DNA from: Flavobacterium litorale
Lineage (GTDB): Bacteria > Bacteroidota > Bacteroidia > Flavobacteriales > Flavobacteriaceae
Direction of reading: 5' to 3'
Length of the DNA: 64,000 nt
Assembly: GCF_019613795.1 (NCBI RefSeq)
Contig: NZ_CP080429.1
Coordinates: forward strand, 1,848,501 to 1,912,500
The translations under genes were made by a program, and so were the position numbers. The notes below the pieces were generated by a model, which did not search any database, was not told where the DNA came from, and worked only from the letters and a program-made list of their open reading frames with translations. This document shows positions 49,941-52,617 of this stretch, piece by piece (positions within the stretch are counted from its first letter, which is position 1; each line of letters starts with the position of its first letter).

Positions 49941-49948
49941 TAATATTA
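49941..49948. repeat. Left target-site duplication (TAATATTA)
   Basis: An 8-bp direct repeat, identical to 52157-52164; the sequence is itself a palindrome. Length of 8 bp is the norm for the IS1595 family. Confidence 0.85.
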
Positions 49949-49971
49949 GGTAATTATATACCAGTCTACAC
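49949..49971. repeat. Left inverted repeat of the IS1595-family element
   Basis: Starts GGTAATTATATACCAG and matches the right end at 20 of 23 positions. Its inner part also forms a local hairpin, TACCAGT-CTAC-ACTGGTA (49959-49976), which the right end lacks. Confidence 0.85.
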
Positions 49972-50001
49972 TGGTACAAGTTGTTAATAATTTCTTTATA
50001 T

Positions 50002-50171
50002 TTGATAATGTAAGGCTAAGTTGATAAACAAAGCTGTTCTTTGCATCTGTATGATGAGATGGTCTTACGGGACTGCATCGGGATTTGTACGCTTATGTAA
50101 GCAGTGCTACATAAGACTTTGATGATGTTTAGAATATTCTTTGCGTAAGACTTAGCCTTATATATTATCAA
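50002..50171. ncRNA. Candidate structured RNA 3' of the transposase, inside the IS element
   Basis: Five sets of complementary arms nest without crossing. P1 is 50002-50009 with 50164-50171 (8 bp) plus 50011-50020 with 50151-50160 (10 bp, TAAGGCTAAG). P2 is 50063-50069 with 50144-50150 (TCTTACG) and abuts P1. P3, inside P2, is 50092-50099 with 50108-50115 (CTTATGTA). Two small hairpins lie between P1 and P2: 50029-50043 (CAAAG arms) and 50044-50061 (CATCT arms). P1 includes the transposase stop codon. The likely transcript is the 3' end of the transposase mRNA on the minus strand, but the strand is not certain. This is a hand reading, not a fold calculation. Confidence 0.5.
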
Positions 50172-51091
50172 GCTACTAAAGCTTGATATGTTGTTCTCAC
50201 ATTTGAATTTCGAAGTAAGTGATTAAACTTCTCCGAATCAGGAACCTTCCTCATATTATACCTGTAAACAAATTCGTCTACATAAAATTGAAGATGCTTC
50301 CTTGAAACACTGTTATACATATCCCTGACAGAGTTCTTCATGATTTTCCAAGCTCCCTCAATATTATTCGTATGCACAGCACTGTCATAATCATTCTTAT
50401 ACCCCTTATCCGAGTGCTTTACAGTGAAGTGGAGATAACTGTCATCAAGTCCCCTGTATCCTCTCCAATCGTCTGAAATGAATATTGTTTCTGGTTTAAC
50501 ATACTTCTTTATTTCAGGTTTTAAGGATTCTGGGGATGTGTCTTTAGTAACTATGGCTGTAAGCTTACCACCTCTCTGAACCAACCCTAAAACAGGGGTC
50601 TTATCTTTACATGACCTCCCTTGTGAGTTCTTAACTCTTTTGTTGCGGTGTCTGTTACGGTTCTTACCTCCATAGAAAGACTCATCGGCTTCGACAATGT
50701 CTCCCAATTCGTTATAATTCTCCACTCCGAAGCAAGCTCGGATTCGTTGTAGCATAAACCACGCTGTCTTTTGGGTTACTTCTATATCTCTTGCGAGTTG
50801 AGTCGAAGCAATCCCTTTCTTGTGACACGTGACTAACCATACTGCCATGAACCATTTCTGGAGGGGCAGTTTTGTATTTTCGTACATGGTTCCCGTCTTT
50901 ACATTAAAGTACTTACCAGTGTTTTTACACTTATAGTTGATACCGTTGCATTTGTAGACTACTGAAGAGCTGTCAAAAGGAGAAACAGGTGTTTCACCTC
51001 CCCACAACATCAACTCCATGTACTTGATGCACGACTCCTCTGTTGGAAACGTTTGCATCAAGTGTAACATTGACTTGATAGTAGTTAACAT
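50168..51091 (-). CDS. IS1595-family (ISXO2-like) transposase
   Basis: A protein of 307 residues from MLTTIKSMLHLMQTFPTEESC; an in-frame TTG nine codons upstream is possible. The N-terminal region has the usual YKCKNTGKYFNVKTGTMYENTKLPLQKWFMAVW sequence, a partial zinc-ribbon with the second cysteine pair only, as is common in the flavobacterial branch. A helix-turn-helix follows (STQLARDIEVTQKTAWFMLQRIR). The ISXO2 catalytic domain has acidic residues in GDIVEADESFYGGKNRN, TIFISDDWRGYRGLD and HTNNIEGAWKIMKNSVR. It is complete and uninterrupted, so it may be active. Confidence 0.95.
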   Translation of the reverse strand: MLTTIKSMLHLMQTFPTEESCIKYMELMLWGGETPVSPFDSSSVVYKCNGINYKCKNTGKYFNVKTGTMYENTKLPLQKWFMAVWLVTCHKKGIASTQLARDIEVTQKTAWFMLQRIRACFGVENYNELGDIVEADESFYGGKNRNRHRNKRVKNSQGRSCKDKTPVLGLVQRGGKLTAIVTKDTSPESLKPEIKKYVKPETIFISDDWRGYRGLDDSYLHFTVKHSDKGYKNDYDSAVHTNNIEGAWKIMKNSVRDMYNSVSRKHLQFYVDEFVYRYNMRKVPDSEKFNHLLRNSNVRTTYQALVA

Positions 51092-51150
51092 AATGAAATA
51101 GAACGGATTAATAATCAATTCTAATATACGAAAATTACTTCAATCAAGTG

Positions 51151-51168
51151 AGGTAAAATGTTTTACCT
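51151..51168. promoter_or_regulatory. 18-bp palindrome between transposase and passenger genes
   Basis: AGGTAAAA-TG-TTTTACCT, with perfect 8-bp arms. It overlaps the plus-strand -7 element at 51164 and lies about 60 bp upstream of the transposase ATG, so it could be a shared operator for both transcripts. Confidence 0.5.
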
Positions 51169-51171
51169 TTG
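51164..51171 (+). promoter_or_regulatory. Candidate -7 element (TACCTTTG) for the passenger transcript
   Basis: Exact TAnnTTTG match on the plus strand, about 217 bp upstream of the passenger start codon, implying a long leader. Confidence 0.5.
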
Positions 51172-51225
51172 TGTTAAGGCACTATTGCCTCTTACATATT
51201 AGGACATAACGTACTATACACCTTT

Positions 51226-51350
51226 GCAACTGTAAATTACCACTTTTCAAGTAGAGCAAAATCAGTGTATGTAGTGCGCCAATACTGGCGTGGCTATATC
51301 ATTGCTCTACAGGTTGTGGTAAACCTTCAGTTGCGTGATATACGTCACGC
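51226..51350 (+). ncRNA. Candidate structured leader or small RNA upstream of the passenger gene
   Basis: Four sets of arms nest into one long hairpin: GCAACTG 51226-51232 with CAGTTGC 51328-51334; TACCAC 51238-51243 with GTGGTA 51316-51321; TAGAGCAA 51252-51259 with TTGCTCTA 51302-51309; CGCCA 51277-51281 with TGGCG 51286-51290. A second hairpin, GCGTGA 51333-51338 with TCACGC 51345-51350, shares two bases with the first and is followed by CTTTTATTTTAT, like a terminator. The two are partly exclusive, as in attenuators. The 5' arm sequence AACTGTAAATTACCACT recurs exactly just before the passenger start codon. This is inferred by eye, not by folding software. Confidence 0.5.
51228..51244 (+). 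repeat. 17-nt direct repeat, copy 1 (in leader hairpin)
   Basis: AACTGTAAATTACCACT, identical to 51368-51384. It contains most of the 5' arm of the leader hairpin. Confidence 0.85.
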
Positions 51351-51356
51351 CTTTTA
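51333..51356 (+). terminator. Possible attenuator hairpin before the passenger gene
   Basis: Stem GCGTGA/TCACGC around TATACG, then a T-rich stretch. Only 6 bp, so its strength is uncertain. Confidence 0.45.
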
Positions 51357-51367
51357 TTTTATCATGT

Positions 51368-51384
51368 AACTGTAAATTACCACT
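51368..51384 (+). repeat. 17-nt direct repeat, copy 2 (at the passenger start region)
   Basis: AACTGTAAATTACCACT, ending 3 nt before the ATG at 51388. The 3' arm of the leader hairpin (GTGGTA, CAGTTGC) could pair with this copy and cover the ribosome entry region. Confidence 0.8.
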
Positions 51385-51387
51385 AAT

Positions 51388-51846
51388 ATGAAAACCGTCC
51401 TTTTATTATTCCTGTTCCCATTATTCCTGTATTCTCAGGAAAGTTATGAAACTAAGCACAGAGACAACTGTCGAAGCATGAGTATTGAATCTCTCAATTT
51501 CATGTACGACCATGACTTCAAAGCATATCTCAAAAAAGATAATCTTTTTATGGAGATTGACTTCAATACCAACTGTAGCTCTGAGCTTGTTAACAGTAGA
51601 ACTGTGGCTTCCATGAAGGACAACGCTAAAAACACAATTTATTCGATTGTAAAAGGAGCTATGCCCAGTATTATTAAAAGCAATGACTTATGCGAGTTTA
51701 ACACTTATGTTTTCAATGTAATCTATAAATCAGATGACCATAAGTACTACACCTACACGTACCATATCAATGCTCAGAACTTGTATGAAGTTAAAGACTA
51801 TTTGACTAAGTCGGAGGTCTTTTCTTTGATGCTTTACAAAGAATAA
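51388..51846 (+). CDS. Passenger gene of the IS1595 element: small exported protein of unknown function
   Basis: A protein of 152 residues with signal peptide MKTVLLLFLFPLFLYSQ, typical of Flavobacteria. The mature part of about 135 residues has three Cys (HRDNCRSM, NTNCSSEL, NDLCEFNT), is rich in Asp, Asn and Tyr, and has two strand-like segments (NTYVFNVIYKSDDHKYYTYTYHINAQNLYEV). I do not recognise a family. It lies inside the inverted repeats and is transcribed away from the transposase, so it moves with the element. It ends just before a short hairpin at 51873-51895. An accessory role for the host, such as in the envelope, is guesswork. Confidence 0.8.
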   Translation: MKTVLLLFLFPLFLYSQESYETKHRDNCRSMSIESLNFMYDHDFKAYLKKDNLFMEIDFNTNCSSELVNSRTVASMKDNAKNTIYSIVKGAMPSIIKSNDLCEFNTYVFNVIYKSDDHKYYTYTYHINAQNLYEVKDYLTKSEVFSLMLYKE

Positions 51847-51872
51847 GCTACATTTGATACAACTTATTGTAC

Positions 51873-51895
51873 TAAATACCAAGGAGGTATTTTTA
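51873..51895 (+). terminator. Probable terminator of the passenger gene
   Basis: AAATACC pairs with GGTATTT around AAGGA and is followed by TTA; a short T run. 27 bp after the stop codon. Confidence 0.5.
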
Positions 51896-52133
51896 ACTCA
51901 CTTCTAATTAACATGAAATTTAAGTTGGAGGTATCCACCCGTGAAGATGACACGTTAAAACATATTACAAACACTATTAGATTGATAGTTGTTTGTGCAG
52001 CCACTTGTAAAATAGTGAGCCTTCTGGTTGCTGCATTTATGTAGCATAAATAGGGTTGGGAGTTAAAGTTAAGAATGATACTCCCAACTCCCAGTAAGTT
52101 AAGATGGTCTTAACCCTCCTTGGTTATTTATAG
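51896..52133. other. Non-coding right part of the IS element with several hairpins
   Basis: No credible gene. Complementary arms seen: GTTGGGAGT 52056-52064 with ACTCCCAAC 52081-52089 (9 bp), and GTTAAGA with TCTTAAC around TGG (52099-52115). AGATGGTCTTA at 52102-52112 is repeated at 50057-50067 in the left structured region. The role is unknown. Confidence 0.5.
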
Positions 52134-52156
52134 GTGTAATCTGGTATATACTTACC
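52134..52156. repeat. Right inverted repeat of the IS1595-family element
   Basis: Read inward on the minus strand it begins GGTAAGTATATACCAG; 20 of 23 positions match the left end. Confidence 0.85.
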
Positions 52157-52164
52157 TAATATTA
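52157..52164. repeat. Right target-site duplication (TAATATTA)
   Basis: Identical to 49941-49948. On the minus strand its first three bases are the TAA stop of the lipoprotein gene. Confidence 0.85.
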
Positions 52165-52617
52165 ATTATTGGAAATCATCTCATCTCTCGCTATAATATA
52201 ATCCAAATATGCTTTAGGATCAGACTCCCAAAGAGATACTGTGGTTTTCCCATTAATTAAAAAATCTTTCTCTATTATATCTCCCTTGTAGAGACCTGTT
52301 CCGTCGATTGATTTGTTAGCATCCCCTACACCTTCATCGTCACAACCGCTTCCAGAGTGCATAATTACGGAGAAAGCAAGGGTGGTGCCGTTTTCATCAA
52401 TAAATAAATGATTAATTCTATATACATAGCAATCATTATCCATACTAATAAGATCTGCCCTAACAGTATAACTAATTGTAGGCTCTGTACTTTTTGTTTT
52501 AAACACTAATTCATCAGCATTATTAGCATTACTATCGGTAATACTGTCATCATTTGAGCAAGATAGAGCTAATACGGCAAATGACATAACTGTAGCGTAT
52601 TTTAATATTTTCTTCAT
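52162..52617 (-). CDS. Small lipoprotein, paralogue of the neighbouring exported protein
   Basis: A protein of 151 residues with lipoprotein signal MKKILKYATVMSFAVLALSCSND (lipobox LALSC). The mature part contains a DNDCYVYRINHLFIDENGTTLAFSVIMHSGSGCDDEG segment with two Cys, then a charged C-terminus. The same pattern appears in the protein encoded upstream (52639-53079): NGxxLxxSxxxxSGxGCD. Its TAA stop lies within the target duplication of the IS element, so the protein is intact but its terminator is 2.2 kb away. The function is unknown. Confidence 0.8.
   Translation of the reverse strand: MKKILKYATVMSFAVLALSCSNDDSITDSNANNADELVFKTKSTEPTISYTVRADLISMDNDCYVYRINHLFIDENGTTLAFSVIMHSGSGCDDEGVGDANKSIDGTGLYKGDIIEKDFLINGKTTVSLWESDPKAYLDYIIARDEMISNN

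Follow-up and report, generated by a model that had tools for sequence, protein, structure and literature searches.

The window, a stretch of 64,000 nucleotides analysed here, holds a complete 2.2 kb IS1595-family transposon of a Flavobacterium genome (49949-52156), and the passenger gene of this element is preceded by a conserved folded leader RNA that occurs widely in the genus and the phylum. The 3' arm of the RNA is able to pair either with its 5' arm or with a second copy of that arm just ahead of the passenger start codon. From this geometry the earlier note had suggested an attenuator or translation switch, or a small RNA with its target on the same transcript; that the leader is one of a widespread family of RNAs had not been foreseen. 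We find the geometry to be real and conserved, and an attenuator or translation switch is the leading reading for members like the window copy. As an account of the whole function the suggestion falls short, since 72/95 family members carry no exact start-site copy; the conserved core must do something more basic, to which the switch would be an add-on.

The element was assigned by its transposase, which matches Pfam DDE_Tnp_IS1595 at 9.5e-38 and 130 bits (cut-off 27), and by its ends, as terminal inverted repeats delimit 49949-52156 with a target duplication identical at 8/8 positions. The leader and the passenger gene are divergent from the transposase. The parts of the element are as follows.

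49941-49948: target-site duplication TAATATTA, 8 bp, left copy
49949-49976, + strand: left terminal inverted repeat, 22/28 positions match
50168-51091, - strand: IS1595-family transposase, 307 aa
51388-51846, + strand: passenger gene, 152 aa, exported-looking N-terminus
52129-52156, - strand: right terminal inverted repeat
52157-52164: target-site duplication TAATATTA, 8 bp, right copy

The passenger protein matched no Pfam family above cut-off, and only two relatives were found among 5.8 billion sequences. Its fold, predicted from three sequences, reached a mean pLDDT of 75.6, with the five models spanning 41 to 75.6, and no PDB fold matched it at E <= 0.001 (the best reached 0.011, TM 0.32).

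Between the transposase and passenger genes lie the promoter region, the leader RNA and the start-codon copy, with the following features.

51151-51168: perfect dyad AGGTAAAA-TG-TTTTACCT over the promoter box, read from the sequence
51164-51171, + strand: TAnnTTTG promoter box (TACCTTTG)
51177-51190, + strand: 5' mini-hairpin of the predicted transcript, from folding
51226-51243, + strand: A1, the 5' arm (outer GCAACTG, TAAA loop, inner TTACCAC)
51226-51232 / 51328-51334: outer arm pair, GCAACTG / CAGTTGC
51237-51243 / 51316-51322: second arm pair, TTACCAC / GTGGTAA
51252-51259 / 51302-51309: third arm pair, TAGAGCAA / TTGCTCTA
51277-51280 / 51287-51290: apical arm pair, CGCC / GGCG
51252-51309, + strand: middle helix and apical hairpin (GCGCC...GGCGTGG), from folding and covariation
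51287-51300, + strand: B, the 3' strand at the apex, complementary to B', with which it could form an alternative or pseudoknot pairing
51311-51314 / 51323-51326, + strand: short GGN/NCC stem flanking the inner part of A'
51316-51334, + strand: A', the 3' arm, able to pair with A1 or A2
51333-51360, + strand: terminator-like hairpin and T-rich tract
51337-51351, + strand: B', the 3' side of the terminator hairpin plus the next base
51368-51384, + strand: A2, where the A1 sequence recurs 4-20 nt ahead of the ATG

A letter-by-letter check bore out what the earlier note had described at this locus. The long hairpin consists of four nested arm pairs with 26 bp in total, and AACTGTAAATTACCACT, found at 51228-51244, recurs at 51368-51384, 4-20 nt ahead of the passenger ATG at 51388. 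The outer 3' arm and the terminator-like hairpin (51333-51350, followed by a T-rich tail) overlap by two bases, the GC at 51333-51334, and the claimed TAnnTTTG box is likewise present ahead of the leader. Apart from the start-codon copy, no 20-nt direct repeat of this kind is listed in 50500-52500. The dyad AGGTAAAATGTTTTACCT (51151-51168), situated between the divergent transposase gene and the leader RNA, looks operator-like and might serve as such.

The folding of this region is far from chance. For 51178-51400 we obtained a z of -4.5 and for the predicted transcript 51177-51360 a z of -6.2, and in both cases 0/200 shuffles folded as well. Each of the two partners proposed for the 3' arm was recovered as a computed minimum in one folding range: 51178-51400 gives pairing of the 3' arm with the 5' arm, and 51130-51400 gives its pairing with the start-codon copy.

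We searched 398 genus genomes at the DNA level and obtained the window's own copy, four chance matches, one close relative and one distant relative; the matches L006-L009 were not taken as members, as only their terminator-like tails aligned. The close relative (L002) also adjoins an IS1595 transposase, and its cargo protein does not cluster with the window passenger protein. Compared with window positions 50168-51384 its leader DNA is 88% identical and the transposase proteins are only 62% identical, hence the leader may move between elements. The distant relative fronts a 482-aa protein, and its own 5' arm core recurs ahead of that ATG. A covariance model started from these three copies found three more real-looking copies, one of them the second copy in the own genome (the matches L020 and L021 were not counted), and the resulting six-copy model matched in 101/398 genus genomes at E <= 0.1. 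The model was rebuilt on 63 members before a scan of the phylum and a scan of transposase loci, and the family finally comprised 95 members. In the phylum sample, which is rich in the own genus, 42/296 genomes and 26/139 genera matched at E <= 0.01. The candidates L103 (E 0.01) and L206 (E 0.32) were not counted as members.

Rfam 15, scanned at E up to 5, 0.1 and 0.5, gave no match overlapping the RNA at 36 loci (the window and 35 other members). A structured RNA this common and yet unmatched in Rfam wherever it was scanned would be a large annotation gap, and the covariance model provides a means to annotate it. DNA searches of plasmid and phage records gave no matches, and a lone pattern match in a viral contig was taken as chance, lying inside a coding region of a phage-like contig. 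Our literature search, of partial coverage, found no description of the leader RNA and no paper on such an RNA in IS1595-family transposons; it could be mentioned elsewhere, for instance among the unnamed sRNAs of Flavobacterium psychrophilum.

Compensatory change in the arms, which the earlier note had suggested looking for, was found both in the 63 members and in the 32 members outside the model. In the former 91.1% of cells were paired, double changes occurred at 24/25 pairs, and the covariation score was 0.718, with 0.207 for shuffles and 0.05-0.10 for slid controls. In the latter 87.0% of cells were paired, with double changes at 23/25 pairs and a score of 0.718 against a shuffle mean of 0.236 and slid controls of at most 0.126. 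The helices hence covary beyond controls, as in a structured RNA; it should be noted that both alignments, being made by and fitted to the model, lean to the model structure. G-U pairs outnumbered A-C pairs by 136:23 in the first alignment and by 67:16 in the 32 non-model members, which identifies the + strand as the RNA strand. For the B-B' pairing, 94.7% of cells were paired against 92.5% in shuffles, which score this high because the bases are conserved, and seven cells held double changes. The 5' mini-hairpin was present in 79/95 members against 70% of shuffles, hardly above them by this crude test.

By sequence, the module runs from a promoter box through a conserved folded RNA, about 184 nt long and with a T-rich tract at its end, to the cargo ATG. 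A TAnnTTTG box lies at most 110 nt upstream in 72/95 members against 6/95 and 7/95 in two controls, and the tract after a conserved CACGC holds at least 7 T of 10 in 86/95. For the 61 members with the box within 75 nt the predicted RNA is 155-202 nt long (median 184). An ORF of at least 60 aa starts within 120 nt downstream in 59/95 members, and a crude hydrophobicity rule assigned an export-like N-terminus to 46 of the 59, compared to 72/199 control ORFs. The 59 cargo ORFs fall into 39 similarity clusters, the largest of 12, so the RNA is constant while the cargo varies. The cargo ATG stands 24 nt after the modelled T-rich tract in the window and 18-41 nt after it in the 23 members that have a start-site copy, too close to the terminator for a separate promoter to fit in between.

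The earlier note had taken lack of the repeat in homologous copies as a point against a switch, and here the outcome was divided. The six-base A1 core occurs again at most 10 nt before an ATG in 23/95 members and is absent there as an exact copy from the remaining 72. Swapping A1 among members gave a mean of 2.6 and a maximum of 8 (300 trials), shuffling the downstream sequence a mean of 0.25 and a maximum of 3 (200 trials), and swapping A1 within the 23 a mean of 8.9 and a maximum of 15 (1000 trials); the counts are not independent events, because many of the 23 are close relatives. Six cores are represented among them (TTACCA 13, CTACCA 4, ATACCA 3, ACACCA 1, TCGCCA 1 and CTGCGA 1), and as A' pairs with A1 throughout, A1, A' and A2 change together. 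Two exclusive pairings whose partners co-vary with a shared arm, as a switch should have, are found only in these 23/95 members. L002 and L149, whose start-site copies have one changed core base, were kept outside the 23.

With six pairs forced and pseudoknots not modelled, the A1 and A2 states lay within 5 kcal/mol of each other in 16 of 22 members (all of the 23 except L085), with a median of +2.7 favouring A1. In 6/22 the A1 state was favoured by 6.0 to 15.7 kcal/mol, and by this calculation these six would hardly be poised. Within the own genome, pairing of A' with the A2 of the same copy gives -18.3 for the window copy and -23.5 for the second copy, and cross-copy A'-A2 pairing is poor (-8.4 and -8.0).

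Many RNAs of the family are linked to IS1595 elements. Among 32 transposase-linked loci examined, terminal repeats with a target duplication enclose the RNA at 16 (duplication 8/8, except L090 with 7/8); the other 16 comprise one with repeats not enclosing the RNA and 15 where repeats were not found. Further RNA copies of the own genome are C1:2035904-2036053 (L025) and C1:1982651-1982793 (L216), and all three own-genome copies found (E up to 1e-7) lie within about 2 kb of an IS1595 transposase. In L025 a 22-codon ORF immediately follows the start-site copy, and a lipoprotein-like gene lies further on. We also scanned a species-genome collection for IS1595 transposases and used the best 80 of at least 591 stretches. 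The 63-member model matched 21 of these best 80 loci at E <= 2.3e-5, with the uncounted L103 as a further one at 0.01. Training sequence had come from 18 of the 21 (L057 being the same locus as the training member L002) and not from L059, L108 and L064. A transposase ORF was found at 76 of the 80, and repeats with an 8/8 duplication at 40; 12 of these 40 elements carry the RNA, in 12/12 cases inside the repeats. Looking outward from members, an IS1595 transposase was present in 14/45 wide stretches and in 3/16 further stretches.

We give about even chances to a cis-acting leader RNA of the transposon cargo gene, in which A' pairs exclusively with A1 or A2. Many transcripts would stop at the terminator, and cargo mRNA would arise by read-through. 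In such an mRNA, pairing of A' with A1 would leave the start region free and translation on, while pairing with A2 would mask the start region and turn translation off. As A2 lies beyond the terminator, the A'-A2 pairing cannot act on termination. A1, transcribed before A' and A2, would be a built-in competitor for A', and a factor capturing A1 or altering the apical or B' fold would shift the A1/A2 balance. The B-B' pairing, for which conserved bases are most of the support, would compete with the A1/A2 fold or knot it. Before SusC-like and other genes that have no A2, the same RNA core would be limited to termination control or a role in trans.

The main rival, which we consider somewhat unlikely, is that the terminated RNA is a small regulatory RNA acting in trans: its A', shown between GGN and NCC, would bind the start region of cargo mRNA made by read-through, or that of other mRNAs, and A1 would be an internal lock. 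The frequency of promoter boxes (72/95) and T-rich tracts (86/95) would suit such an RNA, as would the occurrence of the RNA core without A2 and the pairing of FopS with start codons of SusC-type mRNAs, as reported in PMC11697453. The GGN/NCC stem around A' has modest support, being paired in 81.7% of cells against 74.4% in shuffles, but its number of pairs with double changes (two) was reached by 414/500 shuffles. Further, the own genome shows no surplus of A2-like sites ahead of an ATG (9, compared with 17 for the reversed pattern), a point in favour of action in cis, and in the A2-less members among the 63 the pairing of A' with the next 110 nt is mostly no better than in shuffles. Pairing of B' beyond the terminator was seen by eye in A2-less members, where a shuffle test was not convincing.

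Another reading takes A1, A2 and the inverted A' as protein-binding sites on RNA or DNA, with the start-codon copy as a repression operator. A2 does repeat A1 even in the TAAA loop, which is unpaired and dispensable for pairing with A', and this repetition also counts against the cis-acting leader. However, the core exists in six versions with A' changing along, as pairing predicts, and the excess of G-U over A-C (136:23 and 67:16) is not favoured by a DNA site, hence we regard this reading as improbable. More improbable still is that the RNA serves transposition or maintenance of the mobile element itself, say as a guide or as an RNA antisense to the transposase. Its place inside IS1595 repeats at 16/32 loci and the transposase beside all three own-genome copies would be in line with this, but 31/45 stretches, some of them short, have no IS1595 transposase, and among the best 80 of at least 591 loci 28/40 repeat-bearing elements with an 8/8 duplication have no RNA by the model.

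Returning to the cis-acting leader, we tentatively extend it, with more doubt than belief, to phylum-wide mobile riboregulators: compact and possibly pseudoknotted RNAs with a short guide, A', which an internal copy of its target (A1) keeps locked and which is directed at the start codon of any cargo gene the element bears. As the address differs between some copies, among them two in the own genome, a given copy would act mainly on its own cargo. SusC-like receptor loci beside variable phage-defence genes are fronted by this RNA core as well. If the switch reading is true, transposons and islands of the Bacteroidota bring their own RNA module for cargo expression.

The leader resembles bacterial attenuator leaders in having a promoter, a folded leader, a terminator, a gene tens of bases downstream and alternative arm partners. 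It differs from those in that the second partner, which copies the 5' arm, is placed past the terminator at the start codon, and in that the cargo genes are mostly mutually unrelated (39 clusters/59) and sit on transposons and islands. DonS RNAs of Bacteroides polysaccharide loci are antisense to a gene; they are likewise small RNAs near SusC-like genes, whereas the leader RNA is on the gene's own strand. In type III toxin-antitoxin systems tandem RNA repeats precede a ToxN-like endoribonuclease; the window locus has no tandem array, and its cargo has no ToxN-like Pfam domain. With known IS1595-family transposons that carry passengers the element shares the transposase domain, terminal repeats, 8-bp duplication and passenger genes, but not the conserved folded RNA within the cargo module. 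The FopS and GibS sRNAs of Bacteroides are, like the leader, Bacteroidota RNAs that pair near start codons and involve SusC-like genes (PMC11697453). According to that paper, FopS has a single-stranded 5' part and then a terminator hairpin and is deposited in Rfam; the leader RNA instead has a long hairpin and, at the 36 loci scanned, no Rfam match. Flavo-1, a structured Flavobacteriaceae RNA motif of unknown function mentioned in PMC9723704, is an Rfam-type motif and was absent from the matches at every leader RNA scanned.

Other members lie, judged by eye from their ORFs, in islands with recombinase-like and restriction-like genes. A SusC-like ORF of about 1000 aa, judged by its look, begins 107-676 nt downstream of the RNA in 12/63 members (L151, L154, L155, L159, L160, L162, L164, L167, L169, L170, L171 and L174), and Pfam identified the single ORF examined as a TonB-dependent receptor. 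In these 12 loci a small ORF is divergent from the RNA, with an HTH domain above the Pfam cut-off in 4/7 tested. Among ten proteins from the variable genes behind it, chosen for their defence-gene look, eight matched PADLOC at E <= 1e-4, four of them strongly; the defence models matched include type IIG restriction, AbiEi, LmuB and HEC-05. The position of the RNA between the divergent small gene and a SusC/SusD-like pair may mark a cargo hot spot.

By eye, L147, L163 and L023 show a small exported-looking protein with repeated SEADxI-like stretches that flanks or diverges from the RNA, in islands that hold recombinase-like and restriction-like genes. Three phylum-level members (L181, L188 and L195) carry the RNA ahead of genes that look like ECF sigma factors, and the member L191 is located about 1.4 kb from an rteR sRNA match (Rfam RF04181, above cut-off).
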